Positions 9,207-49,212 of a stretch of DNA of 64,000 bases are shown here, piece by piece. Each line of letters begins with the position of its first letter. Position 1 is the stretch's first letter. The translations under genes were made by a program, and so were the position numbers. The stretch covers positions 114,510 through 178,509 of the forward strand of contig JBAMJV010001372.1 of the NCBI GenBank assembly GCA_037951105.1, read 5' to 3'. The notes beneath the pieces were generated by a model. That model was given only the letters and a program-made list of their open reading frames with translations. It was not told where the DNA came from and did no database searches. Source of the DNA: Echinarachnius parma (Eukaryota; Echinodermata; Echinoidea; Clypeasteroida; Echinarachniidae).

Positions 9207-10386
9207 CCTAATATAAAGTTTGTACATTATCAATTTTGGCAAATCACCATTTTTCATACACAGTTAATTGCACAAATCACAAGGTAAAATTGTACATAAT
9301 AGTACTAAAAGTATTTATTTCAAGGTGTTCGTATATTTTAGCATGAAAATCACATGTAGATAATCATATATGCAATACATCTTTTAATTTTGTCCAATAA
9401 TAACCTTTGAATACTCAGTCATAAAAACTTTGGAAATAGGAACAATATAATATCAATAATGGCAAATCACCATTTTTCAAATACAATAAATGAAACAAAT
9501 CACAAGGTAAAAGTATTTATTTCAAGGTGTTCATATATTTGAGCATGAAATCATACTACACACAGCAACATATGAAAATTATTAAGACATGTATGTATAT
9601 AAATAGAGGCAATTTGTCTTCTTGCTAATGCATTATGCCAATGATCAAGCTGAATGGAATACATATATATTTCCTGAGGGTTTTATTTTCATGAATATAT
9701 CGCAAATCACTTGTGAATCACGAAATTAACAACACGCTAGAATATTGACAACAAATGCAAAGCAATTACACGCATTGCATGCATTACTGCACTATAGCAT
9801 CTCTCTCAAGACAGTCATACACAATATGTATACTGTAAACGTTGTTATTTTCGCGCGATTAATATTTCGCGCTGAGCGACACAAAAAACACATTCGCGGA
9901 ATTTTAATTTCGCGGCCGAGCAAGTGTTCACACCTTTTACAAATCACGCATTTATATTCACGGAGGCCGACTTCAGCGAGAAATCCGCGAAAATAAATGC
10001 ACCGCGAACATTACCACGTTTACAGTACACATGCAGTGGGCTACATGTAAACTGCGCTAGCCCGCTGAATGCATGTAACAGCCAAACGCGAATATAACCA
10101 CTCGCAAAATTGGCGTAAAGTCCCGATTCTCAATAATGTATGTATGCAAAATATATGGTGTATACAGTACTTAATTGGTATTTTTTCAGCACATAATAAT
10201 TGGTCTCAGAAATCGAGAACTCTACATGGAAAATGTCAATAGCTGAGCCTCATAGTTTCATAGTACATTTCCAATTGTTTTAAATATCAAATCAATGTAA
10301 CTACTAGCTACGTCACCAGTCAATCAGTATGGAGTATGATAGGTGTTGCCATGGTAGTTACACTTACAATAAGCGGAAATGTTTAA
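9207..10386. other. Intergenic, no gene recognised
   Basis: A ~45-bp sequence (GGCAAATCACCATTTTTCA) recurs at 9238 and 9459. A CpG-containing inverted repeat (TGTAAACG...CGTTTACAG, 9834-10026) brackets a possible MITE. Confidence 0.4.
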
Positions 10387-10817
10387 AGGGTACCACCACC
10401 CCAAAATAATAATCTTTTTATAGAAAGGTAACATCTTTAGTATTCCATTCCTTCAATAAGTTCACAAAAATATGTTTTCAGAAAAAATATATAATTGGAA
10501 AACGCATCACCAGTCTCAGCCATGCGGTCATGCGGTCTGAATGCGCAGACTATTATGCGAGCAGAGCCAGCGGCGCTCTATGCAGAGCGAACGAATCATC
10601 CAGGATTCTATTGACGTACGTGTGAATTACATTGGCGAACTCGCAAATGCCTGGCCCGTGTGGAACCACGAGATAGCCGTGGTTCCGTAAGTGGTGGAAA
10701 TTAATTGCTTTGTTTATGAATTACACAACCCTTTGCAAAATGTTGGGTATCTATTTGATATCACAAAACGGTACCAAAACATATAATAATGTGTTGTCCT
10801 TTGCCTGGTGGTCCCCT
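10387..10817. mobile_element. TTAA-flanked MITE (AGGGTACCACCACC ends)
   Basis: TTAA at 10383-10386 and 10818-10821 flank AGGGTACCACCACC and GGTGGTCCCCT. 431 bp, non-coding. Same target preference and AGG...CCT termini as the elements at 3799, 28101, 28720 and 48702. Confidence 0.65.
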
Positions 10818-11265
10818 TTAATGAAACATGGAGCCCGTAATTATATTACATATTTACTATCTTTGTACAGGACGGATATATAATTATTGCACTTCATATT
10901 GCAAAAATGAGTTGGTTTGTGTTGTAATCACAAACACTTTGGTCCACTTCAAATGTATTTTGAACATTATACTCACAAAATAACTCAATTGACAATTTAC
11001 ATAATGAACGACCAAATTAAGTAGAATATGAAGACACAGTGAAAACACATTTGTGGAGACTCTTTTTCACAGATAAACAGTCTGTATAAATATAAGTACT
11101 ATGTATATGATCTTGCATAATAATTAAAACAATAAATTTCAACAACAGTAATCAGGCAATGATGAAAATAAGTTTGATCTGAAAAGGAACAAAGATAGGG
11201 AGAAATAATCCCAAATGTAATCCACACTCCTGCTCTCAACAAGGGAGCATGAATGGATATATACC

Positions 11266-11500
11266 AATGGTCTGGTAAAAATTAGCCTGGTGCACCTATA
11301 GGTATGTGGCTGCCTGTGTCTAGTATGCTCCCCAGGGAGTTAAGAAGGTGCACAACATAAGTGTGCAGATCTGAACGGTACCTAACGACCAGGGATTTAA
11401 ATAATCCAAGGTCTTGAATGTTCAGCGTTAGGCACTCTTATGTCACATTATCGTTGTGTATGAACCTGGCTATTGCACTTCTAGGTTCCCGTGAAGTTCT
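11266..11500 (+). repeat. SINE-like fragment
   Basis: Shares TAGTATGCTCCCCAGGGAG and a following GTGCACAA...TGAAC..TACC..A..GACCA/AAAGG arrangement with 23145-23295, which ends in a GCCCTATAAATGCTATATATTATTATT tail typical of tRNA-type SINEs. Fragments also at 51395-51480 and 52866-52920. Confidence 0.45.
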
Positions 11501-11576
11501 CAAATAAGGTCGAGGAGGAGGTAGAAGCAGATATTAAAAGGGAATGATACTGCGAGTCAAGTTTCTTTCTTGCCAT

Positions 11577-12470
11577 TCAATAGCGAGTTCCGAATCATTC
11601 ATTGACGGTCATCACAGCTATGTCGAAGTTGACTGCCATGATGATGAGCTGTTCTCTCTCTGTCTATGTCTTACCATTCAATAGTGAGTCCCAAACCATT
11701 CATTGACAGTCTTCACAGCTATGTCAATGTTGACTGCCACGATGATGTGCTGTTCTCTCTCTGTCTATGTCTTGCCATTCAATAGCGAGTTCCGAACCAT
11801 TCATTGACGGTCATCACAGCTATGTCGATGTTGACTGCCACGATGATGAGCTGTTCTCTCTCTGTCTTACCATTCAATAGCGAGTTCCAAACCATTCATT
11901 GACGGTCTTCACAGCTATGTCAATGTTGACTGCCACGATGATGTGCTGTTCTCTCTCTGTCTATGTCTTGCCATTCAAAAGTGAGTTACAAACCATTCAT
12001 TGACAGTCTTCACAGCTATGTCGATGTTGACTGCCACGATGATGTGCTGTTCTCTCTCTGTCTCTATCTGTCTTGCCATATAATAGCGAGTTCCGAACCA
12101 TTCATTGATGGTCATCACAGCTATGTCGATGTTGACTGCCACGATGATGAGCTGTTCTCTCTCTGTCTTACCATTCAATAGCGAGTTCCAAACCATTCAT
12201 TGACGGTCTTCACAGCTATGTCAATGTTGACTGCCACGATGAAGTGCTGTTCTCTCTCTGTCTCTATCTGTCTTGCCATTCAATAGTGAGTTCCTAACCA
12301 TTCATTGACGGTCATCACAGCTATGTCGATGTTGACTGCCACAATGATGAGCTGTTCTCTCTCTGTCTATGTCTTACCATTCAATAGCGAGTTCCGAACC
12401 ATTCATTGACGGTCATCACAGCTATGTCGATGTTGACTGCCACGATGATGTGCTGTTCTCTGTCTGGGAT
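11577..12470 (-). repeat. Nine-copy tandem array of the FBXO15 last coding exon
   Basis: Units repeat at 95, 101 or 105 bp. On the plus strand the complement of the stop codon falls at 11577, 11678, 11779, 11874, 11975, about 12080, 12175, 12280 and 12381. Read on the minus strand, each unit encodes a version of REQ-IIVAVNIDIAV-TVNEWFGTRY followed by a stop. The copy at 12381-12470 is the functional exon: it alone has a polypyrimidine-AG acceptor (TTTCTTTCAG at 12471 and above), followed by IPDREQ in phase 0 with exon 14. Length differences are confined to the CT-rich spacer. Two types alternate imperfectly (AVMTV versus AVKTV). The sixth copy has lost its stop and the fifth ends WFVTHF. The eight extra copies lie downstream of the stop and would be 3' UTR or intergenic. 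Confidence 0.88.
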
Positions 12471-15400
12471 CTGAAAGAAACAGAAAGAAAAAAACACTGT
12501 ACACCGTGTCCCAGAAAAAACGAAACCGGGTTTCATGGCAGAAATTTTCTGTCATAATGAATAATTTAATTAATGATATATATATGCCTAGAAAGCTCTG
12601 TGTCTCTTCTTTCATTTGATGTGCAACTTATGGCACATACTTCAAGCATGACTGAATTAGAACAATGGAAAGTGGTGTTACCAATATTCAATTTGCGCGC
12701 ATAAATTTGAAGTTTGGGTGAGTTTTAAGAGTTGTAAACGTACTTATTTTAAAAAAGGACAAACACCACATAAAAGTTCACATTTTTATCTTTTACATGA
12801 CACCTCATGCTAAAAAAATAAATGATTTATGCCAGAGAACGAGTACAATGAAAACATGCCTGATTTCTGCCCGAATGAGTGAAAGTTGAGTAAGAAGTCG
12901 CTCAGCTTTCCTGACTAGCAGCTGACAATGGACGTTGATGCATGAGTGAATTCACACAAACATGGGGATCAGGAAACAGGCAAGTTACAGGAAAGTTACT
13001 CATTTGGGCTGGAATCAAGCATGTTTTCATTGTATTCGTTCTCTGGCATATATAATTTATTTTTTAATCATGAGGTGTCATATTAAAGATAAAATTATGA
13101 ATTTTCATGCGGTGTCTGTCCTTTTTCAAAATAAGTACGTTTACTACTCTTAAAACTCTCCCCAAAACCTCACCCAAACTTGCAATTTCTGCGCGCAAAT
13201 TGAATTTTGGTAACACCACTTTCTATCGTTCTAATTCAGTCATGCGTGAATTATGTGCCATAAGTTGTATATCAAATAAAAGAAGAGACACGTAGCTTTT
13301 CAGACATATATATATCATCAAGGAAATTATTCATTATAACATAAAATTTCTGCCATGAAACCCGGTTTCGTTTTTTCTGGGACACGGTGTATAGAGTCTT
13401 AGAGAATTGAACAGTGGAAAAATCAATAGCAAAACATTTCATATGGTACAGTTGGAAAACCTGGCAGCCTCCAGTGTTATAGTGGTTTCAAAAACATTGA
13501 TTATTTCCATTATTAATGATAGGTACCCAAGAGGAAATATATGACTAGAAGTGATTGGACAAATGCACCTATCAGTAACAGTAAGCAAAAATAATAGTGG
13601 TTGGCTCCCCTGTAACATGTATTCTCCATAGACCCTAGCCCAAGTATTTCCAGGACCAGTCCTGAATGGGTAAACATCAAGTTAAATTTGCTTTTACCCT
13701 TGACTTCTGAATGTTCAATGAAAATGTGACAAAGATAAAATAATATGAGAAGAAACTAGATGGATCTTCGACTGCGCGCAGTCGAAAATGATGCCTCCGC
13801 CATTACGAAATTTATTTATATCAAGCCCAAATCAACATGTACACTGAATTAATTCTGTCAACTCAATTTTGATGGAACTCTGTCTTTTAGATCTTGACGT
13901 ATCACAATTATGAGCTATAAGTGACCTTGACCTTTTGCCCTCATGACCCCAAAATCTAATGACTACAATTGTTCTCTAAGATACATTCATGTATCAAGTT
14001 GGATTGAAATCTGATATTCAGTTCTTGAGATTTCCAATCTCAAGCTACTTTTACATATAATGAGCCCTGTGACCTTTGACCTCATAACCCCAAAATCTAA
14101 TCAGATCACTGGCTCCCCAAGATACATACATGACCCAAGTTTGGTGAAAATCCGTCAATCAGTTCTTGAGATAAAGCGATCACGAGAACGGGACGTACGT
14201 ACGTACGTACATACGGACGGATAACCCGAAAACACAATGCCTCCGGCTACTTTGTTGCGGAGGCATAAAAACATATGCTGTCAACTTGTCAGAAACAGTT
14301 TTTTAGAAGTTATTTAAAAGGGGTAATGAAGAGATGCCATACAGAGAAAAGAGACATGGAGAAACAAGAAAACTAACTAAGCCGTTCCATCAAACAATAC
14401 ATGTTATACCATCTTTTAAGGCACTGAAACAGAACATAACTTTATTTCACAAAACTGTTCTTCGTCTTAAGAAAAGTGTATCTATATCAATCAATTAACA
14501 ACTAACTTTGGTTTAAACGTTCATCAATAGTAAAATCATTATTAGTCTACAAATAAATGACATTCCCCTGAGGAATATTAAGGACAGCGAAAGCAGATCA
14601 AGAATAAATTGTTACGACAAAGCAGCTAACGGCTTACCCAAAACATTCTGACTTCCAATTCTCCCTTGAGATCTTTGTACTTGATAACGCAGGGGTCTCC
14701 ATCATACTCCATGGTGACTGCATAGGGAAGAGATCGAAAATCACATACCATTCCAGACCTTCTGTACTATATGTGACCGGCTATAGCAAAACCCGGCACT
14801 TGTCGGTAATTCATGTTTTGAAGAAAGGGGCATTTTAAGTTCACACAATGTGTGTAAAAGACCTATGATTTTAAAATTGAAACAATCATATCTTCACCAC
14901 CTATTGACCAATTAGTAAGAACAAAGCATCAAATGAAAGCTAGTGATAAGGGTTTTTAAGGGTATGAAAATCTACATTTTGATTTTTACCGACAAGTGCT
15001 GGGTTTTGCTAAAGCCGGTCACCTATATTCTTACACAAAGATTACTAGGATTTGTTGCCCTGACAAAGATACTGCTAGGATTGAAAGCTAGGCTCTTCAC
15101 GACTTTCATTTTATCACATTGGCGATTTTAGTACATTTAGTAGATCATTTACAGACTTTCTGTAGGCTACTATATTCTTACACAATGATTACTAAATACA
15201 TTCTCATTTTTGTACATTATTAATATAGGCAGTCGACAAATCACAAAATATGCCTTATCTGACTACACAGAGTGTCTATTGGCATCTCGTTCAATTAGTA
15301 TGGGTTAAATTTAACCTGGGTTAAATTCAACCCACCACTTTATTGAACGCCGCGAGGCAAACAATGTGCGTGTATTTCTAAATGCGCGCTTTTTGCTAGA

Positions 15401-22700: not shown

Positions 22701-25700
22701 CTACTTTTAGAACAGATGTTGGACTTACCTATCTTTGAAAGCCGACCCATCTTTGTTGAAGAACATGGGCGCAAGAGCGTAGATGGCCAGACAGTGACCA
22801 GATAGTCAGATAGCCAGATGGCCAAATAGTGACCGGACAGGTGGGGGGGTCTAGTTTCTATTTTCCAAGACAAATTTTTTACTAACCTATCTTTGAAAGC
22901 CGACCCATCTTTGTTAAAGAACACGGGTGCGAGAGCGTAGATGGCCAGACGGCGCAGTGACCGGACAGGTGGAGGGTCAAGGCTGTACCATCTGACCGAG
23001 GATGAGGTGTGGTGGTGGAAAGCATCCGAGTGGACGAAGGAATGCTCCGTCTTGTTCGCGTCTACAAGTACAAGCTCCCACTTGATGCCAAGCTTCCTGG
23101 AGTGAGCAAAGAGAATATAAATATACTACTATATAGTAGAGCAGCTTGGGCTAGTATGCTCCCCAGGGAGATGAGATAGTGCACAAGATAATTGTGTGGG
23201 TTTGAACTGTACCTTATGACAAAGGGTAATAATGCGCCTCTGAATAGGGCACCTAGATACGTGACGCCCTATAAATGCTATATATTATTATTATTAACGG
23301 TTTATCCATCAAGTACCATAAAGGTGTTGCCACTCGCTCACTTCTTTGATTGAATGAAAACACAGCTAAAAGTTGACATTTTCATGGACTGATTTATGCA
23401 ATAATCGAACGCCCCAATACTTGTTTACATAATATTTTGAAGGCACTGGTCATTGGGATGAAATTATACGATTTTAAGCGCCACGAAAATTGGCCTTTTC
23501 TATGCCTGTGTCCGCTCGGTTAGGCTCGCCATTGACTTTGTACATGTGTGACCTCTCTCGCGTTTTCTGTCGATTACGTGCAAAGTCAATTACTGAGCGG
23601 ATACCAGAAAACATAGCAACTACGCAAGCCTCCCTCAAAATCATTAGTTGTCCTGTTTCCGGGATTATTTGTTATAAACGATACTTACTAGTGTCGTGCT
23701 AAGATCCTGAGCTACCACGCCGTGATTCCATTCCGCCTCTAAAATCAATAGGTGATATTTCCGACACAAATCAGAAGATGGGTCTAAAAAAGTGACGCAA
23801 ATTTCTAAAAACAAGATATCCGCGAGCTACATTCATCTTGGTGCAAAGAACTGTCTTTTTTCCCCTTAAAATTTAACGTAATGACTTGAAATGTTGGGAT
23901 TGCATTCCGAAAATAGGAAACATCGCGCATACGCTTGCACAGCGCGCGTACTGTGGCAGTAAGGAAGTAGGTCACTTTTCAGGGGTGAATGTTGTGCATA
24001 ATCTGCCTCGGGATGGGAGAAAAGGGCGCGCGGATGCCAAAACTTGTATGGTACTATAAAGGATTGTCTACATTTTTTAATCAATTATGTTCCTGCGTAA
24101 TAATGCCGTTCTAAATCTTTCTGATGAATATCAACGTAATACTCCAATGAGTTAAAATAGAAATAGCTGCTGTATTATTTGTTGTCGTTATAGTTCTTCA
24201 GATACATGATCAGAAGGAGAGATTTGAAATTCAGGCATGATCAAGATACATTCAAGTAAACAGACAATTAGTAGAGGGAGAATTTCATAGAAGTACTAGA
24301 TATAGAAAGCCATGGCATAACATGATTTCAAATGTCCCTATGAACCTAAAGACAGTTTATTCCTTTATTTCTTGTTGGTGTGGAAAATCCGTTAGTCCTG
24401 AATGGGTAAAAACACATCAATCCCAGTCAATTTATATAATGGGTCTTACTCTTTTTAAGGTTACAATTAGATACAAATTTAACTTGAAAGTTGTGCTACA
24501 TTTAAGGAACTTACTGAATGGTCTTGATCGTGTTGGCTGGGAGTAAAGAATAAGGATCTTTCTTCTTGAGGAGTGTTGTTAAACGGACGTTTCTTTTACT
24601 GATGCACCTGTTCAGTGATTATAGACAATAAAATTAAAGAACATTGATTTTGTTAATGGAGAGATCATACATATACATACAAAGTTCAATGATTGGAAAT
24701 AGAATTAAAGAAGATAGATTTTGTTAATGGAGAGATCATACATATATACATACAGAGTTCAATGATTGGAAATATAATTAAAGAACATAGATTTTGTTAA
24801 TGGAGAGATCATACATATACATACAGAGTTCAATGATTGGAAATAGAATTAAAGAACATAGATTTTGTTGAAGGGAGAGATCATGCATACATCAATTTAC
24901 AAGTACAGTCAAACTTGAATACAAAGACTCCAATAAAAAGTCGTCTTAATGAGCAGGTAGAAGTAGGCATTTATAAACGGGTTATTTTCATGTGAATTGC
25001 TTTTTTTAGGGATATAGCGGTCTTTTAATGTATGTAGACAGTCTTTAAATCCATGGGTTACTGGAGCAGGTTTAATCGTAACTTGAAAATGTGCATATCT
25101 CATACAGAGAATGGGATTAAGGAGTTGTTTAAATAAAGCAAAATATTTCTCAGACATCATTACCTCTATTATGTGCCAAGCTGTGTCATCACATCTCAGT
25201 TTGAACCCAGATATATTTGACATGGACAAATTACATTAATCCTTTTCATTTCAAATCGGGCAATGATTCACAATAACTTTACCATTCTATAAGGAAGCTT
25301 AAAGGAATTAGGAAATCCCCAGAATTCATTATCATTATATTGCATAATATCAACATCTGTTCACAATAGCACTATAATCAATGAATGGAAGGTGTTGAAT
25401 ATTGTGATATGAAAGAGCTTCGACCAACAACTTTACCTTGTAATACAAGTTTGTTAAAAAAGAGTTTAGTTTTATCAGAGCTTGTGTTAATGAGGTTCCA
25501 CTGTAATTCAATTTATTTATCTTATTGATCTCACTCTTTAATGCAGGCCTTCTTCCACTTGACATCTGCATGTAAGGAGTACACCGGATGAGGTTTGGCA
25601 GGCTTCTCCTTCTCCTTGGTCGAGGCAGCCTTTGATTTCCCTCCAGGCTGGGAGGCGTACAGCTCATACAGGGGCTGCCATAATACACTGTGGAGATGAG

Positions 25701-27729
25701 ATATGTTTGCGTTATCAATAACAATTGATGTGAATATTGATAACCATGATAGTACATGTTTAAAATGCAACCTATCGTCTACATTATAATATTATCATAT
25801 TTTTGACAAAGACCCCTTCCCACCCCTGAAATCAGGTTTTGTCTAAAAAGTGATATTCCTGACAATGGTCAAAGATTAATTTTGCATATATCCCCAACTT
25901 GATTTCTATTCTCCAGGTTTGTATCAAGTTAACAAAGCTTTTGAATAGTATGAGCATTGAGGTATGAGCTTTCGAGCTCCGTTGGTATAGCACCAGTCTA
26001 GCAATCCAAAAATCTCTGAATCGATTACCAGGAAAGCTCAACTTTCTTACCCATCATTTGCTCATCATTCATTTATTTTTGTAAACATTGATGGATCTTC
26101 TTACTTGTCACTTGCCAATGCCAGCCACTCTCTGTTCAAACAGGCGCATATCAGCAGGACGTTCGGAGGGAGGAAGCCAAGAAGGTGCAAGAGCAGCTCT
26201 GTGGGTAAACTGAGAACAGAAGAAAAAATACAAAATTCATGTTACTGAATTAATGAATGTCTTCATCTGTTTTGCAAAAACTCTTTGTTAGGAAGACTTT
26301 TGTTATATATTGTCTTACTAATATGTGCACACATCTATTGGCTCATTTCAGTATTTTCAGCAGTATATTTTGTGAAACAAAAACAATCTAAGAGTTTGGA
26401 GATCTATAAGTAAAATGAGACTTTATAAGCAAGTGAAAAGAGAAACATCAAATATAATGAGCATAACATAATCACTAGACAAAAGCAAACCTTAGTTTGA
26501 ATCAACTCATAGTTAAAGGAAAATACAGGAAATAGTAAATTAAAAATGTCTCAACTATAAACCTTCTTTAATAACAGTGTGCTACTAGAGGGTTCCATCT
26601 GTTATCACTATTTGTTTAACTTTAAATTTAAAATTGTTAGCCTGTTAAACAGGGTAGACTTCTGCAATCAGAGATATTGGAAGACTTTTCTCTTTGACTG
26701 TACTATACACCTTTTGAAAAATGTTCCTTATTTTGTAAAATGTTAGAACAAAATGTGTGAATGTGTTCTAATGAGATGAGTCTCTCCAATGTATACTCCC
26801 TTCATTGCAAATTATTTAATAAGGTACATCAACAGGACTCTTCAAGTAGTGAATAAATAAGCAAGAGTGCTGCTGAAAAATGTGGTAATTATAATAATTA
26901 AAATGTTTATGTGTTGTGTGAACAGTAACAAAATATGATGAAATACTTACTCGTTGATTGTTGCTTTTCTTCCCGATATCTTCACAGGACGGAATTTAGG
27001 AGCCAGTCTGGCGCTCTTTTCCTGACCTTTTGTAGAAACAGACTGCACTTGGACGCTCCTCTTTGCACGAGATGAAACGTGATTGGACTTTCCGGCAGAC
27101 TGCGGTTTGGGGTAATCTTCTTTTATTTGGAGAGCTTGAAGATCAGGCATTCCACTGGGTTGACTAGAAAGGGAAAAGAAAATAATGTTCATTCATCAGC
27201 GCTTTTGAACATTTGCAATGACAAATGCATGTTATAATTTATAAATTTGACTAAGAGTACATCAAAATTACAAGCTCTAGATGTATCTTTGCTTTGAAAA
27301 GGCAGTACTTTCCTTAACTTAAAATTGGATGCTTTAGTTTGATTGTGTTTGATGAAAACAGACAAGCAGAGTTCCCCCAAGAGGAAAATTATACAGATTG
27401 GTGAAAGTTGAAAAGATTACTAGAACACAGAGACATTCATCAACATTTTAAAGTTTTAAATAGTTGTAATGTCTTTCATAATTTAAAAAATGTTATAGTT
27501 TGAATAAGAGAAAAAGATTGAACATGATTGTTTTTCCACACTTTTAATAAGACTGCAAATGAAGAATTCACTAGCAAAGATAAGTTTGTTTGTTTTGTAA
27601 GTCATAAAATAAAGATTACCTCGATGGTTCAGCTCTCTTATTTGGAGAGCTATATCCTTGCTTTTGCTGCCTTCGATGTTTCCCCAAATAATCAGACAAA
27701 TCCCTCTTGTGTTTACCTGCATCTGCCAT
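12381..27729 (-). CDS. FBXO15: F-box only protein 15 (15 coding exons)
   Basis: Seen: coding exons on the minus strand at 27620-27729 (ATG at 27729), 26951-27163, 26105-26209, 25535-25687, 24515-24598, 22887-23096, 21843-21972, 21438-21520, 19157-19212, 18666-18764, 17710-17825, 17049-17110, 15822-15859, 14638-14761 and 12381-12470 (TGA). Each has AG/GT borders, and phases agree at every junction except 13-14. The product is about 550 residues. The F-box lies across exons 3-4 (DLPTELLLHLLGFLPPN, then SDNVLWQPLYELY). Later stretches resemble vertebrate FBXO15: IKWELVLVD, WYSLDPPPVRSL, IYTLHGGIIIATWKEGGEIAF, DPEYGQHDYS, FPWKTDVFKGIIK, WCISSP and the C-terminus VNEWFGTRY. Family knowledge: F-box proteins bind SKP1 and recruit substrates to the SCF ubiquitin ligase. 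Odd points: the terminal exon is amplified, exons 6 and 11 have local partial copies, and a MITE touches the exon 14 acceptor. At junction 13-14 the consensus donor (15821) gives phase 1 while exon 14 needs phase 2, so either the weaker GTGGAC donor four bases on or an unseen small exon is used. Confidence 0.85.
12502..13389. mobile_element. TA-flanked fold-back element (mariner-like), arms about 400 bp
   Basis: CACCGTGTCCCAGAAAAAAC at 12502 and its inverse ending CTGGGACACGGTG at 13389, each flanked by TA (12500-12501, 13390-13391). Almost the whole 888 bp folds back (for example TTTGCGCGCATAAATT with AATTTCTGCGCGCAAA). It abuts the acceptor side of the FBXO15 terminal exon (12470). Confidence 0.8.
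13756..14268 (-). mobile_element. Helitron-like non-autonomous element, family A (copy 1)
   Basis: Read on the minus strand: 5' hairpin ATGCCTCCGC...GCCGGAGGCAT (near 14265), a CCGT/ACGT simple repeat, a body with AGGTCA-containing subunits, then a 3' hairpin GACTGCGCGCAGTC, GAAGATCCAT and CTAG at 13756-13759, followed by T. This is the arrangement expected of Helitron/Helentron-related short elements. No Rep/helicase coding. Confidence 0.65.
14773..15022. mobile_element. MITE with GTGACCGGC ends touching FBXO15 exon 14
   Basis: GTGACCGGCTATAGCAAAAC at 14773 and inverse GTTTTGCTAAAGCCGGTCAC ending at 15022. CTATAT at 14767-14772 and 15023-15028 is a 6-bp target-site duplication. The element begins 11 bp upstream (in the gene) of the exon 14 acceptor at 14762. 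Confidence 0.75.
15310..15795. mobile_element. TIR element related to the one at 111-532
   Basis: GGGTTAAATTTAACC...CCACCACTTTATTGAACGCCGCG and AAATGCGCGC...AGATGCGCACTCATCC match the inverse strand of 420-530; the far end (ACCTTTTGATGTGAATTCC) matches its other terminus. Located in FBXO15 intron 13. Confidence 0.6.
16770..16885. mobile_element. Small palindromic MITE, copy 1
   Basis: GGGTGATTTCAAGTATGGTG...CACCATACTTGAAATCACCC is a near-perfect hairpin with AATG-type borders. Two more copies are at 38626-38720 and 38748-38834. About 90-115 bp, no coding. Confidence 0.7.
17968..18032 (-). pseudogene. Duplicated 5' half of FBXO15 exon 11
   Basis: A second copy of the start of exon 11 (true exon 17710-17825) lies about 207 bp upstream in the gene, complete with a TTTTCAG acceptor at 18033. 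It reads VDGSVRLTAVRGD, then an insertion, then VTDHS and an in-frame stop. It lacks the second half of the exon and has no donor. It cannot serve as a mutually exclusive exon in this state and is best read as a local partial duplication left in the intron. Confidence 0.7.
18495..18596. mobile_element. 102-bp palindromic MITE
   Basis: CATGGGCGTTGATC...CCTATTCATCAGGGGGG and its inverse form one hairpin. In FBXO15 intron 10. Confidence 0.65.
19023..19080 (+). repeat. tRNA-Ala-like sequence, probably a SINE head
   Basis: GAGGCTCAGTTGGTAGAGCA resembles a box A D-arm and CTGGTCTAGCAATCCAG an anticodon arm with AGC in the loop. The T-arm is degenerate and there is no proper acceptor pairing, so this is not a functional tRNA. 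A worse copy is at about 25970-26030. Confidence 0.45.
19420..19873. mobile_element. TIR element with CATAGCTGCCAAC ends and 6-bp duplication
   Basis: CATAGCTGCCAAC at 19420-19432 and its inverse at 19861-19873, flanked by GTAATG on both sides (19414-19419, 19874-19879). The interior holds a long A-run and a T-run (19681-19774). It has split a family C repeat. Confidence 0.75.
19880..20182 (-). repeat. Repeat family C (5' hairpin plus CCGT repeat)
   Basis: On the minus strand: hairpin-like GAGCCCACCGAGGTGGAGGG (near 20160-20180), then (CCGT)n, then a body with AGGTCAAAGGTCA (complement around 20005-20017). Resembles families A and B but no CTAG 3' end was found; it is interrupted by the element at 19420-19873. 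Confidence 0.5.
20209..20823. mobile_element. Non-autonomous hAT element
   Basis: TAGGCTTGGGCG at 20209 and its inverse CGCCCAAGCCTA ending at 20823, with the 8-bp duplication ATGTCAAG at 20201-20208 and 20824-20831. It contains a perfect 32-bp palindrome at 20318-20349. No transposase; the two-frame ORFs inside are incidental. Confidence 0.85.
22368..22970 (-). repeat. Tandem copies of the 3' half of FBXO15 exon 6 with its splice donor
   Basis: The true exon 6 ends at 22887 (ATAG|GTTAGT). Copies of its last ~70-80 bases plus the start of the intron recur with donor positions near 22729 (ATAG|GTAAGT), 22530 (ATAC|GTTAGT) and 22368 (ATAG|GTTAGT), spaced 158, 199 and 162 bp. Each retains the stretch encoding part of LRRLAIYALAPVFFNKDGSAFKD, with substitutions and small indels. 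None has the upstream half of the exon or an acceptor. Reading through from exon 6 to the second donor is open, but the extra 158 bp would shift the frame relative to exon 7. C- and G-runs (22473-22492) separate the copies. Confidence 0.75.
23145..23297 (+). repeat. SINE 3' part
   Basis: TAGTATGCTCCCCAGGGAG leads to a tail GCCCTATAAATGCTATATATTATTATTATTA. Shared with 11266-11500. Lies just upstream (in the gene) of FBXO15 exon 6. Confidence 0.5.
24640..24885. repeat. Tandem repeat, about 3.5 units of ~72 bp
   Basis: ATTTTGTTAATGGAGAGATC, then ATACATA, GTTCAATGATTGGAAATA and AATTAAAGAA recur with few changes. In FBXO15 intron 4. Confidence 0.75.
24906..25503. mobile_element. TA-flanked TIR element (CAGT-AAC ends)
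   Basis: CAGTCAAACTTG at 24906 and inverse GAGGTTCCACTG ending at 25503, flanked by TA. Related to the CAGTGGAAC elements at 37610 and 38846. The AT-rich interior shows no transposase. Confidence 0.5.
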
Positions 27730-30885: not shown

Positions 30886-33800
30886 ATGGCTGACACAAAA
30901 ACAGACATCACAGATGCTGCTGATGGGAAGAACGCACAAGATTTGACACAATTTGTGAGTATTTTGTACAATAAAATTAAAATAAAGGATCCATCGATCC
31001 GTAATCCGTCTTACTTGACCCGACTTTTCATGACAGTCATTGACATTGACGTAAACTTGATCGACAATGCGTAATGGATGCTTGACAAACAGTCATGACA
31101 AATAAATAACCACCTGTCCTAATTCATGCCAGTAATTTTTGAAATATACTTTTCTCAATGCTCGGGCTGGTGTTTAATTTGAGTAAGTGTTGATTAATTG
31201 TAATTATAAAAAGCTTGATTTTCTTTCTTTGTTTCTGTTTTTTATCATCCAGGTTCAGCAACTTCTGGAACAGATGCAGAACAATTTCCAGTCGATGTCT
31301 GACAGAATAATTGGAAGAAATATCCTTTTTACAAGTTGTTAAAGTTTCTGTTTTCACTTCCTGATTCGTATATAAATTATAACTTCACGCAATATGTTAG
31401 ATCGACAAATCTATCGCTTTCATGGCCTTTTTTACATTATTATTGTTATTTTCACTGTCGGCATTCTAGCGATAGACGCAATCTATACACTGTGCCTTGC
31501 GCAGTAAGAACACCGTAACTCGAGAGTAAAAGTTAGTTACGGAAAATGATTTTTTTATGCCTCCGCCAACGAAGTGGCCGGAGGCATTATGTTTTCGGGT
31601 TGTCCGTCCGTCCGTCCGTCCGTCCGTCCGTCCGTCCGTACGTACGTCCGTCCGTACGTACGTCCGTCCGTCCCGTTTTCGTTCTCGCGATATCTCAAGA
31701 ACCAGTTGACGGATCAATTTCAAACTTGGTATGAGTGTACATATTGGGATGACAATGATCTGATTAGATTTTAGGGGTCATGAGGTCAAAGGTCAAGGTC
31801 ACAGGACTCAATATATATGCAAAAATGCCTCGTTCTCGCGATATCTCAAGAACTGGTTGACGGATCAAATTCAAACTTGATATTAGTGTAGATATTGTGC
31901 TGGCAATGATCTGATTAGATTTTGGGGTTCACGAGGTCAAAGGTCAAGGTCACAGGACTCAATGTATGTGCAAAAATGCTTCGTTCTTGCGATATCTCAA
32001 GAACCGGTTGACGGATCAATTTCAAACTTGGTATGAGTGTACATATTGGGGTGCCACTGATCTGATTAGATTTGGGGGGTCATGAGGTCAAAGGTCAAGG
32101 TCACAGGACTCAATATGTATGCTAAAATGGCTTGTAATGGCAAAATTTAAAGAACTGAATGTCAGATTTCAATCAAACTCGGTACCTGAATGTATCATAA
32201 AGAGTCAACGTAGCCATAAATTGTTGGGGTCATGAGGTTGAGGTCAAGGTCACGGGACTCATTATACATGCAAAAAAGCTTGTAATGCCAAAATCTCAAG
32301 AACTAAATGTCAGATTTCAATCAAACTTGGTACCTGAATGTTTTTTAGGGAGCCATCAAAGATTGGGGTCATATGGTCAAGGTCACAGGACTTGAGCGCG
32401 CCAAGTTGATTATAGCAGCTTTGCGGCGCGCGCGCTGTACCGTACCTAGCTGCCTAAGTTTCTGAAAAAGTGTTCGCGCATACGGATGCACGTTATATTT
32501 TTTTTTTTTTGCAGTTTGAACAAAAAGTACCGCGAAAGACCGAAGAAGAGGCATGGAAAATTGTGGAAAATCTCACAATTCGCCGTAATTATAGAATGAC
32601 ATGTATAGCGACACACGAGATCGGTGAGTGAAAATATTATAGCAGCCCTAAATGTATTGATAGTGAGAATGTGGTGTTTTATATGAACAAAAAAAATCAT
32701 TTTCCGTAACTAACTTTTACTCTCGAGTTACGGTGTTCTTACTGCGCAAGGCACAGTGTATAGATTGCGTCTATCGCTAGAATGCCGACAGTGAAAATAA
32801 CAATAATAATGTAAAAAAGGCCATGAAAGCGATAGATTTGTCGATCTAGCAATATGTAGGCTATGTTTTGTGCATTATGATTTTGCAGCATGCATATTGC
32901 TAGATCGACCAATCTATCGCTTTCATGGCCTTTTTGACATTATTACCCACGCCGATGAAATCGGCAGGGGGTTATGTAAAGGGTTCCGTATGTTTGTTTG
33001 TTTGTTTTTTTTTTTGTTTTTTTTTTTGTTTGTTTGTTTGTGTACAAGATAACTAGAGAACGGGTGAACGGATTTGCACCAAATTTTCAGGGAATGTTTG
33101 GATAGTGACATGGAAGAATCGATTAGATTTTGGTGATGATTGGTTGACCCCTGCAAATTCTGTGGAACCTTGAAGTTTGAGTATGTATTTATTGGTACGG
33201 AAATTGACAACAATTACGGGAGTACGGAATGGCGCTGAAATGTTACGGATTTTGGGAAATCCGATAATGCACTACCGTCTATGCATTTCTATTTGTGCTC
33301 CGTGCGATCGCGATGGATATGGCACACACGCACTAATGTACTTATCACACACACACAGTCTCTCTTCTCCTCTCCCTTCTCACACTAGTCTCTCCTCGTC
33401 TCTCCCGTCTCAAATCATTTCAAGAAAACAACGTGGCGCACACGCCATGCCAATAGATGTACCTTACACATAGTACACACCCGCATGTAATGTGTTGTGC
33501 ATATTGCAATGCATAAATATTAGGCATATCTATACTACACAGGCAGCTAGTAAAAACACGTGCGAATCGGCAGATAGCTGTCATGAAAAGATCTAAAATC
33601 ATATTTATGCAAGAGAAATGGACATAAAAGTTTGCAGAATCAGGAAGATAAGGTATCTGTTATTGTTTGTAATAGTTTATTTTGTTTGAATTCATGATTT
33701 ATGTTACATTTATCGCCAATAAATTGGACAGATGTCGGCATTTTCAAGCCCTCCCTGCAGGCATACCCAGTCAGCATAGTTTACTATGCCTGGAGTTGTG

Positions 33801-40868: not shown

Positions 40869-43800
40869 TCACCTCAGAGGGAAGACAAATTTCTTGCATC
40901 CGCTCTTGCAGTGGACCTCTTTGACCCTGATCGTCAGGCCGGCCGAGTGCTGGTACAGTTTTTCCTGTAGCGATTAAACAAATATAGGAATTAAGCAAAA
41001 TTGGATAGACAATGAGCTTTAAAAAAAAAAAAAAAGATTGGAGAAAAAGCGGAAATCCGCGGAAACGCAGAAATTGTTCATGTCTGACATTAATTTGTTT
41101 TGGCTTGTGACCCAGTCGGACAAGTCAAAACAAGATTTTTCAAATTCTAGTGGCCCCAAACTAAGAAAAAAAAGATCTTGTTATATTTGGTTGCCCATTT
41201 GGGCCAGAGGAATTTAGGATCAATGATATTTAGCAGCCCTGGGCCAGTGGGCTTGCTCCTAATTTCAAAAGAACTAGGTATATAATTTATTCAAACATAT
41301 CTATAAGCAAGGAAAACTGACCAGAAATGTATAATATGAATGAACTAGATGGATCTTCGACTGCGCGCAGTAAAAAATTATGCCTCCGCTATGACGCAAT
41401 TTTCAATATCAAGCCCAAAATAACGTGCACTGAAATTTTGTTTTTTTCATATATATATTTTGAGTTCTGTGACCTTGACCTATGTAGACCCCAAACTTTG
41501 ATGGCTACATTGGCTCCCAAGAATATTCAGGTACCAAGTTAGATTGAAATCTGACATTCAGGTCTTGAGATTTTGCCATTACAAGCCATTTTTGCATATA
41601 TATTGAGTCATGTGACCTTGACCTTTGACCTCATGGCCCCCCAAACCTAATCCAATCATTGCCACCCGATGGGTATGCAACTCCTTCCAAGTTTGAAATT
41701 GATCCATCAACCGGTTCTAGAGATATCGCGAGAATAAGGCATTTTTGCACATATATCGAGTCCTGTGACCTTGACCTTTGACCTCATGAACCCCAAAATC
41801 TAATCAGATCATTGTCTCCCCAATATATACACTCATACCAAGTTTGAATTTGATCTGTCAACTGGTTCTGGAGATATCGCGAGAACGAGGCATTTAAAAA
41901 CATATATTGAGTCATGTGACCTTGACCTTTGACCTCATGAACCCCAAAATCTAATCAGATCATTGTCACCCCAATATGTACACTCATACCAAGTTTGAAA
42001 TTGATCCGTCAACCGGTTCTTGAGATATCGCGAGAACGAAAACGGGACGGACGGACGGACGGATGGACGTACGTACGGACGGACGGACGTACGTACGGAC
42101 GGACGGACGGACGGACAACTCGAAAACATAATGCCTCCGGCCACTTCGTTGGCGGGCGGAGGCATAAAAATAGCAAACGGGATCCTGTTGGAATCCCATT
42201 TTCTTCATTCAAGAACTATATAAATGAAATCATAAATGAATGATAATATATTATGCAGATTGAGAATGTAAGGGTGGTGGAAATTTGCCTCACCTCCAGT
42301 GGATTTCTTGCCCCCTTCCCACCTTTAGGTTAAAGTGATCCATTAACATTATATTTTTTCCCAAAAGTGATATTTGAGACTTCAATCATATACCAATATC
42401 ATCGGAAGATTATTGAGAATGATATCCGAGATTTTCATAGAAAAGGCATGTTCACCAGGTGAAAACAAAAGTAAATGATTTTATCCTGATCGTTCGCTTG
42501 AAGTATCAAAATTTTGATACTCTTCAAATTCTGATACTCTTGAAATTTCAATCTAAAATATCTCCATAATTAGGGAGACATTTGAAAAATCGAAACCCAT
42601 TTCATTCTTCTGTTACCATAAGCCAAACAACAAGGTACAAGAAAAGTGTGAAAGCTCCCAAGTGATTTGGGTTGAATTTTCACAAAGTGAAGGGATCAAT
42701 TTAAAAAAGATAATTAAAATACACAAAACATGAATAATAACAATTTTTAAAAATACAACAACCAATCTTATTCCTGTTTTTGACATGTATACTGTAGGCT
42801 GCCCTCTCCCTCTTTCCTGCCTTATGGGAGCTGGTTGACCTTTGACCTCCACTACAGTAGATGTACTAAAATATCTGCTCCCTCCCAATTAACCACTCTC
42901 ATCTCAACATACCTTGAGGAGCTGAAGCACGGTCTCGTCAATCCTAGCTGAAACGTCCCCCACACTCCAGCAGAAGCTTACGTGAAACGATGGATCCTGT
43001 TTAAAAGAGTTTAATGAGTAGCGATAAATTAATAAATTCAAACATTGTCAAAACATAGTATTAACAAAAATCCTAATTTTAGAAGTATATTGGCCCTTCA
43101 ATCTTGGCTGAAAAGTTGCCAGCACACTATTCATTACTCCGCCATATGATATAACATCCATTTTACGTGAAATTTTCACAAATTACTTAGTGGACATATC
43201 AGCTTATGTAAATAAACATTTTATCAACCATTCATCACTTTTGCACCTGTCAGCAAAGTTACTAGATCGTTTGCAGCACTGGCCAAACAAACACACATTG
43301 CACAATTACATCATTGAGGATATCTGATATTTATTCCTATTAAATCCTATATATACAAAAATAATAGTTTGTTTTTATTCAAGGAGGAATGATTTTCTAA
43401 CCTTGTAGAAAGTTGGCAGAGCAAACTCCGAGAGACATTCATCTGTCAGCTTCACAAGATCGCAGAGACTCTCGTGACCAGCACCAATTTTCAGACCTAA
43501 AAAAGTTCTGCAAAAGAAAATGATATGTACATGTATATCGATATTAATTAATTAATTAACTAAGTTATTATTATAAACCATCATATTCCTACATGTTTCA
43601 CAACAAAACACACATTTTGAGAATGAGACAGCTAGATTTTGAACAACATTTTCAAATAATAAATAAAAACATTTTTAAAGGCTTTTTAAAAATTGATTTG
43701 ATTTGTACATGGTTCCCAATTTAAACCATATCATCTCCTACTTACGAATGGTGAATTCGGCTTTAATAGCCCCTATTGATTTCTCAACTAATTATATGAA

Positions 43801-47364: not shown

Positions 47365-49212
47365 ATCTTAACTATTTCTTTATATCATGGTTACCATGGC
47401 AACCAGGACTCCGCCCCACACCAAAATCAAAAGGCTTCATCCTCTTTCCTTAATACACCTTCATACCAAATTAGAAAATGATCGGACAAGAACTCGGACC
47501 TGTAGAGCGTTCACAAGGTAATCTTAACTATTTCTTTATATCATGGTTACCATGGCAACCAGGACTCCGCCCCACACCAAAATCAATAGGCTTCATCCTC
47601 TTTCCTTAAGACACCTTCATACCAAATTAGAAAATGATCGGACAAGAACTCGGACCTGTAGAGCGTTCACAAGGTAATCTTAACTATTTCTTTATATCAT
47701 GGTTACCATGGCAACCAGGACTCCGCCCCACACCAAAATCTAAAGGCTTCATCCTCTTTCCTTAAGACACCTTCATACCAAATTAGAAAATGATCAGACA
47801 AGAACTCGGACCTGTAGAGCGTTCACAAGGTAATATTAACTATTTATTTATATCATGGTTACCATGGCAACCAGGACCGCGCCCCACACCAAAATCAATA
47901 GGCTTCATCCTCTTTCCTTAATACACCTTCATACCAAATTAGAAAATGATCGGACAAGAACTCGGACCTGTAGAGCGTTCACAAGGTAATCTTAACTATT
48001 TCTTTATATCATGGTTACCATGGCAACCAGGGCTCCGCCCCACACCAATATCAATAGGCTTCATCCTCTTTCCTTAATACACCTTCATACCAAATTAGAA
48101 AATGATCGGACAAGAACTCGGACCTGTAGAGCGTTCACAAGGTAATCTTAACTATTTCTTTATATCATGGTTACCATGGCAACCAGGACTCCGCCCCACA
48201 CCAAAATCAAAAGGCTTCATCCTCTTTCCTTAATACACCTTCATACCAAATTAGAAAATGATCGGACAAGAACTCGGACCTGTAGAGCGTTCACAAGGTA
48301 ATCTTAACTATTTCTTTATATCATGGTTACCATGGCAACCAGGACTCCGCCCCACACCAAAATCAATAGGCTTCATCCTCTTTCCTTAATACACCTTCAT
48401 ACCAAATTAGAAAATGATCGGACAAGAACTCGGACCTGTAGAGCGTTCACAAGGTAATCTTAACTATTTCTTTATATCATGGTTACCATGGCAACCAGGA
48501 CTCCGCCCCACACCAAAATCAATAGGCTTCATCCTCTTTCCTTAATACACCTTCATACCAAATTAGAAAATGATCGGACAAGAACTCGGACCTGTAGAGC
48601 GTTCACAAGGTAATCTTAACTATTTCTTTATATCATGGTTACCATGGCAACCAGGACTCCGCCCCACACCAAAATCAATAGGCTTCATCCTCTTTCCTTA
48701 AAGGCATATATGCGTGGGTTATTAGACGCGTGGATCCATCTTGCGCACTTTTACGCACGGTACGTAATCCCCATTGGCTCAGTTATAAGTAGCGATCGCA
48801 AACTGTCCCTTTCCGAATACCCGAGTAAAAAATGCATCAGAAATAGTCGCGTTCGGAATGTTTGTATTAGTCGAATGGAGATCCATCAGAGATGTTTACG
48901 AGCGAAAATATCACGTAACACGATTAACCGCAACCGACTTCAAAGCGCCGCCGTGTGATGCCTAGGTGATAGCGTGAGAAATTTGTTTGCTGCATGCAAT
49001 TTCATAAGAAGGCCTGTGTTCAGATATTTCGAAGCACCTCTCTTCGATCGATCCAACACATATCGTGAGTTTACCTCGAGAGATTACGGTGGAGTCGAGT
49101 TGGAATTTGCTGACTACCCTTTATAACCCACGCATATATGCCTTTAATACACCTTCATACCAAATTAGAAAATGATCGGACAAGAACTCGGACCTGTAGA
49201 GCGTTCACAAGA
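47365..49212 (+). repeat. 156-bp tandem array, nine units, each with an RFX X-box
   Basis: Units start at 47365, 47521, 47677, 47833, 47989, 48145, 48301, 48457 and 48613, exactly 156 bp apart. Each contains GTTACCATGGCAAC (47390-47403 and every 156 bp to 48638-48651). Units differ by only a few bases, so the array is young or homogenised. The ninth is split by a TTAA element (48702-49143) and finishes at about 49212. Confidence 0.92.
48702..49143. mobile_element. TTAA-targeting MITE inserted in the 156-bp array
   Basis: Perfect 21-bp inverted ends starting AGGCATATATGCGTGGG; TTAA at 48698-48701 and 49144-49147. Neighbouring array units carry the single TTAA (CTTTCCTTAATACACC), so the empty site is visible eight times. 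442 bp with no transposase. Confidence 0.9.

Follow-up and report, generated by a model that had tools for sequence, protein, structure and literature searches.

A minisatellite very probably formed from part of the last coding exon in an FBXO15-like gene of Echinarachnius parma

The window, a stretch of 64,000 nucleotides from Echinarachnius parma, corresponds to C1371:114510-178509 in an assembly of 1.2 Gb and 14790 contigs, and its copy of the locus is referred to below as haplotype A. An approximate human FBXO15 sequence was used as a tblastn query and matched the minus strand in order from an F-box to a tandem array: at 26232-26107 (E 0.026), 24615 (E 5.9), 23098-22883 (E 5e-5), 21929 (E 0.68), 17820 (E 0.045), 17116 (E 0.10) and 14685 (E 13), followed by eight of the nine array copies (E 0.009-0.30). 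These matches were picked by hand from 61 with E values of 50 or less, and the remainder are mostly due to chance. An F-box domain is thus followed by an FBXO15-like body and C-terminus in the order characteristic of FBXO15, and the query aligns over the same W-I step at which the penultimate coding exon (exon 14) is joined to the terminal exon. No FBXO15-named database entry was matched, and a comparison with the PDB gave five weak matches, four to FBXW7 (best E 0.016) and one to CTC1; the name therefore depends on the approximate query together with the order of the matches, the F-box and the W-I exon joint, and is best taken as a good guess and not as a database result. On this basis the original prediction that the array units are FBXO15 C-terminal coding sequence looks right. 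The coordinates of the features are collected in Table 1.

Table 1. Features of the FBXO15-like gene and its terminal array in the window (haplotype A)
Feature	Position	Strand	Remarks
F-box exon	26107..26232	-	Pfam PF12937, E 5.1e-6, above its cutoff
FBXO15 internal exon	22887..23095	-	Strongest match to the approximate human FBXO15 query, E 5e-5
Penultimate coding exon (exon 14)	14638..14717	-	Ends with a whole codon, ...MFW/GT, phase 0
Palindromic foldback element, MITE-like, ends CACCGTGTCCCAG...CTGGGACACGGTG	12500..13391	.	In intron 14, TA on each side
Acceptor of terminal exon	12471..12492	-	CAG preceded by a polypyrimidine tract; no other such site at the haplotype A array
Terminal coding segment, IPDREQHIIVAVNIDIAVMTVNEWFGTRY-stop	12381..12470	-	Copy 1 lies within, from 12458
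Distal copies 2-9, presumed 3' UTR	11577..12357	-	Behind the stop, without an acceptor of their own
Starts of distal copies 2 to 9	12357, 12252, 12157, 12052, 11951, 11856, 11755, 11654	-	
Stop codon lost in copy 4 (TAT)	12080..12082	-	Haplotype A
Nonsense codon in copy 9 (TGA for conserved Trp)	11595..11597	-	Haplotype A
Distal array edge ATGGCAAGAAAGAAACT	11560..11576	-	Common to haplotype B

Tandem Repeats Finder (TRF) places the array on the minus strand at 11568-12466, with periods of 101, 196 and 301 and scores of 1383, 1310 and 1552 respectively. It consists in haplotype A of nine head-to-tail units of 95-105 bp, as had been predicted, with start-to-start steps of 101, 105, 95, 105, 101, 95, 101 and 101 bp. 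In each unit a coding part of 75 nt is followed by a stop position and then by a spacer rich in purines, and the unit extends from approximately 5-12 bases into the terminal exon to some 17-28 bases beyond the stop; the tandem units of about 10-100+ bp, sequence variants and turnover by which a minisatellite is recognised are all found here. The accompanying claim that every unit ends in VNEWFGTRY-stop did not hold, as the exact ending is present in four of the nine units (1, 3, 6 and 7); in unit 4 V is replaced by I and the stop codon has become TAT, unit 9 has TGA in place of the Trp codon, and the endings of units 2, 5 and 8 carry missense changes to L/H, V/H/F and H respectively. All nine coding parts are 75 nt long and free of indels, which are concentrated in the AGACAGAGAG spacer, and the predicted confinement of length changes to the spacer is therefore borne out in the window copy.

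One other match to the array was found in the assembly, at C5431:15728-16646; it is 90% identical and also comprises nine units, the two arrays being 894 and 919 bp long. C5431 (26.8 kb) is collinear with the window from 24.9 to 0.5 kb, over base 1 to 26484 of its 26778 bases, and its matching pieces (those longer than 300 bp and outside a tandem repeat) are 84-97% identical, with unmatched stretches between them. The window at approximately 40-59 kb is matched in the same way by a second contig, C5393, in ten pieces of 91.5-98% identity when pieces longer than 400 bp and above 88% identity are considered. It is this collinearity, together with the similar behaviour of C5393, that leads us to regard C5431 as probably the other haplotype (haplotype B) of a very heterozygous animal. 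If C5431 were instead a diverged paralogous segment, the two arrays would belong to two genes; intron 14 is hardly alignable between the window and C5431, the largest unmatched stretch of C5431 (3135-10801, of which 799 bases were not fetched) is without a match longer than 300 bp in the window, an upstream FBXO15 exon has a +2 gap near the contig end (C5431 ~274-368 against window 24607-24516), and the F-box exon region has a single full-length match in the assembly. However, C5431 stops short of the F-box exon, so this single occurrence is not informative, and the collinearity from end to end, the existence of C5393 and the mostly silent differences in the other exons make a paralogue unlikely. 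The +2 gap itself could be either an assembly error or a real lesion, and because of it the small insertions in the coding parts of haplotype B (+4 in unit 4, +1 in unit 7 and +1 in unit 9, which frameshift three of the nine units) are possibly assembly errors as well. Both copies of the locus come from one assembly, in which mis-assembly of the array is possible.

Intron 14 is 2.2 kb long in the window (12471-14637) and about 0.6 kb in C5431 (15087-15727); even outside the insertions the alignment is poor, and the intron has diverged much further than the exons on either side of it or the 3' region. In the window it contains the foldback element, whose arms (12491-12726 with 13165-13400, and 12713-12880 with 12998-13165) are 88-89% complementary; in the C5431 counterpart of this intron the element was not found. 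Scores were obtained for 40 places, one of them that in the window itself, and identity among them is 99-100% over 859-863 bp; they are the top 40 of 1873 first-look candidates, of which the others were left unscored. Such identity among the scored copies points to a recent burst. As the element lies about 30 bp before the FBXO15 acceptor, it could affect the choice of branch site. Other tandem repeats occur elsewhere in the window: an array of 156-bp units, with 8.6 copies and 98% matches, at 47365-48701, and two similar-looking arrays on opposite strands, at 31602-32332 and 41598-42116, with 151-bp units in about 3-4 copies, each next to a run of (GTCC)n or (GGAC)n. The latter pair perhaps represents an internally repeated mobile element.

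At the exon joint, exon 14 ends TTT TGG/GTAAGC and the terminal exon is joined at CAG/ATC CCA, the frame running on in phase 0, and the acceptor context TTTCTTTCTGTTTCTTTCAG/ATC stands directly before the terminal coding segment. A scan of haplotype A from 12520 to 11540, with at least 12 pyrimidines required in the 20 bases before AG, found pyrimidine-rich AGs at 12472-12459 only, that is at the start of copy 1, and none deeper in the array; this agrees with the prediction that the proximal copy alone has an acceptor and phase 0 continuity with exon 14. Alternatively spliced tandem exons, each copy with its own acceptor, were rejected for haplotype A on the same grounds. Downstream, a search of haplotype A from 12400 to 10960 for eight kinds of polyadenylation-like hexamer found none, and the nearest canonical AATAAA kept in both copies of the locus is at 9687 in haplotype A and 18087 in C5431, so that the 3' UTR would be at least about 1.4 kb long. 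The 3' UTR length alleles that had been suggested are possible; the two haplotypes have different array lengths and the same number of units.

The array might be thought to encode a product of its own, either a repeat protein on one or other strand or a noncoding RNA. Short open stretches, of up to 75 aa, do occur around single matches, but no stop-to-stop ORF of at least 90 aa overlaps the array in any frame, and the unit steps of 101 and 95 bp are not multiples of three; a new repeat protein was discarded as a candidate on the absence of such an ORF. Neither is there any excess of RNA structure. The RNA of the haplotype A array folds more weakly than its shuffled versions (z +1.82), all 20 of 20 shuffles being at least as good, and no Rfam match was obtained within 10000-15000 at gathering scores, on which a structured RNA was also set aside. 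A separate product, whether protein or RNA, is thus extremely improbable, and the same two RNA results speak against a regulatory use of the distal copies, to which we return below.

The variants within the units were compared with those expected without selection. When the coding parts of the 18 units from both haplotypes were set against their consensus, 25 events were counted, of which 19 were missense, five silent and one nonsense (two or three of the missense events adjoin haplotype B insertions), and these were spread over codon positions 1, 2 and 3 as 9/7/9. Neutral fractions of ~0.75/0.21/0.04 give expected numbers of 18.7 missense, 5.3 silent and 1 nonsense. Exclusion of the events carried by either copy 1 leaves 17 missense, three silent and one nonsense, and the private events (n=17) divide into 15 missense, one nonsense and one silent. 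Constraint on the coding content of the copies, which the original prediction had offered as an explanation for their intact frame, was rejected on this neutral spectrum together with the frameshifts of haplotype B. The intact frame was itself half right, being found in all nine window units and lost in three of the nine haplotype B units, and in haplotype A it calls for no constraint because the indels are concentrated in the spacer.

The rest of the gene presents a different picture. Between the haplotypes, five other exons differ by 25 silent and five missense codons in 190, the exon at 22887..23095 contributing nine silent and no missense changes in 69 codons, and exon 14 six silent and two missense in 26 when read in the frame that joins the terminal exon (read in its second open frame, it would have 1 and 7). 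The tblastn match at 19944-19867, of which only 15 nt are matched in C5431, and the exon at 24608, which has the +2 gap in C5431, were left out of this count. The terminal segment has three missense and two silent changes in 29 codons, a missense excess over the other exons which is not significant (Fisher p 0.067, or 0.074 by residues). From these comparisons the gene looks to be under purifying selection and the distal copies do not. Five of the 16 distal copies are disrupted (A4, A9, B4, B7 and B9) and neither of the two proximal copies is; copy 1 is intact in both haplotypes. The proximal copies carry no private or disruptive change (n=2), an outcome with a chance of 0.135, or of 0.084 when indels and stop loss are included, and their intactness could therefore be luck.

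These results also bear on the proposal that the distal copies are themselves used, through alternative splicing or polyadenylation, as alternative C-termini or a regulated 3' UTR, with all copies under constraint. The uniform 75-nt coding parts of the window would accord with such use, as would the donor-like GGTAAGA that follows the stop in haplotype A units 1, 3, 6 and 8. However, the donor-like site is not kept in unit 1 of haplotype B, which has GGCAAG in its place, the scan of haplotype A found no distal acceptor, and the neutral spectrum and the three frameshifted haplotype B copies are at odds with constraint. We therefore consider use of the distal copies very unlikely, and the alternative C-termini that had been envisaged are without support.

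The units of the array do seem to exchange sequence with one another. Variants are shuffled among the units, with all four gametes found at 22 of the 28 pairs of informative sites, in agreement with the predicted homogenisation; four gametes can also arise by recurrent mutation. Mean unit divergence is 0.069 within haplotype A, 0.066 within haplotype B and 0.0665 between them (permutation p 0.56), and both haplotypes share nine units and the distal edge, which does not fit the suggestion that the array is very young. At eight sites the same two bases are common to the distal copies of both haplotypes. Copy 1 differs between haplotypes A and B at four positions within the unit, and in all four cases both bases are found in the distal copies of both haplotypes, where the chance of four random substitutions all matching a distal variant is about 1.5e-4. 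Beyond the clean unit there is a fifth difference in copy 1 (Asp/Glu), which does no more than resemble the GAGAGA of the distal spacers. The match at the four positions calls for exchange or shared descent involving copy 1, the direction of which the match does not give, and the unselected distal copies thus probably exchange amino-acid variants with the coding copy.

A longer-range pattern within the array is less clear. The AVMTV/AVKTV alternation from which a dimeric unit had been proposed is not strict, the order over haplotype A units 1-9 being M M K M K K M K M, and a strict dimeric higher-order unit was rejected, a period of three units (301) having the highest TRF score. Haplotype A units 3/6, 4/7 and 5/8 differ by only 1, 1 and 4 of 75 positions and so units 3-5 and 6-8 resemble the two products of a trimer duplication. 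However, the test by lag is not clean, as the mean differences in haplotype A at lags 1-6 are 6.88, 5.14, 4.33, 7.4, 4.0 and 5.33, with lag 5 slightly below lag 3, and haplotype B has no clear pattern.

Several known systems bear comparison with this array. Tandemly duplicated exons can serve as alternatives, for example as mutually exclusive exons, and the array resembles these in having tandem exon copies within one gene; it differs in that the distal copies of haplotype A lack acceptors and thus cannot be chosen by splicing. In silent-cassette systems, unexpressed copies feed one expressed copy by gene conversion, and here too there would be one expressed copy, many unexpressed ones and shared variants. 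However, there is no sign of benefit, regulation or directed conversion, and the exchange looks like ordinary array turnover. In PRDM9, a single stop follows the whole array, every unit of which is read in one and the same frame. The units of the FBXO15 array differ in that each brings its own stop, no single open frame running through them, and as a consequence only copy 1 would be translated and the rest would evolve neutrally. The two are alike in other respects: the zinc-finger coding minisatellite of PRDM9 is also a 3'-end array, with variable units that are subject to turnover through duplication, deletion and conversion (PMC3890296). Minisatellites in general share with the FBXO15 array the unit length, the copy number, a purine-rich spacer of variable length and signs of multi-unit duplication (PMC6947457). 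The FBXO15 array differs from them in that its unit comes from a terminal coding exon and includes the stop codon. The model of minisatellite birth has resembling edges at the array ends, to which AGACAGA at the proximal and AGAAAGA at the distal edge may be compared (PMC6947457). As this likeness is no better than that of shuffled letters (2767/5000), a founding microhomology is only a suggestion. No title or opening of an abstract dealing with an FBXO15 repeat or a stop-bearing minisatellite of a terminal exon was found in the open-licence literature of PubMed Central, outside which most subscription journals fall.

The reading which we favour, and consider highly probable, is that of a minisatellite derived from part of the terminal exon, in which copy 1 is translated and the distal copies lie behind its stop, neutral and recombining. 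The founding segment would have run from ~5-12 bases inside the terminal coding exon, through the stop, to 17-28 bases into the 3' UTR, and would have been tandemly duplicated to nine copies by slippage or unequal exchange. Since this segment begins downstream of the acceptor, only copy 1 would be joined to exon 14 and translated, and copies 2-9, to which the acceptor was not copied, would be untranslated by construction; the stop of copy 1 ends the reading frame ahead of them, which presumably leaves them in a long 3' UTR. Free of constraint at the protein level, the distal copies would gather missense, nonsense, stop-loss and frameshift changes, which unequal crossing-over or gene conversion would then shuffle among copies and haplotypes, reaching copy 1. 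The coding C-terminus would hence differ between haplotypes at sites that vary in the distal copies, and selection presumably purges those exchanges that would break copy 1. The sequences themselves show the anatomy of the array, the neutral spectrum, the shuffling of variants among units and an intact copy 1 in both haplotypes; we infer that copies 2-9 are transcribed, in which direction variants move and that copy 1 is under selection. A stronger version, which we put forward tentatively and hold to be possible although on balance doubtful, is that the copies left untranslated serve as a store of variants not exposed to selection, which are repeatedly copied into the FBXO15 C-terminus by conversion or unequal exchange, such that its last 25 residues evolve by cassette-like replacement and not by point mutation.

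A slice of a terminal exon that carries its own stop thus makes for an odd but explicable minisatellite. Its two haplotypes also illustrate that constraint does not follow from a frame kept in every copy of a single haplotype, a question that can be decided by looking at a second one. With eight apparently unselected copies behind its own stop, the gene would provide a natural test of exchange from an array into a working gene, one in which neutral or broken sequence may be moving into that gene, with 5/16 distal copies disrupted and both coding copies intact.
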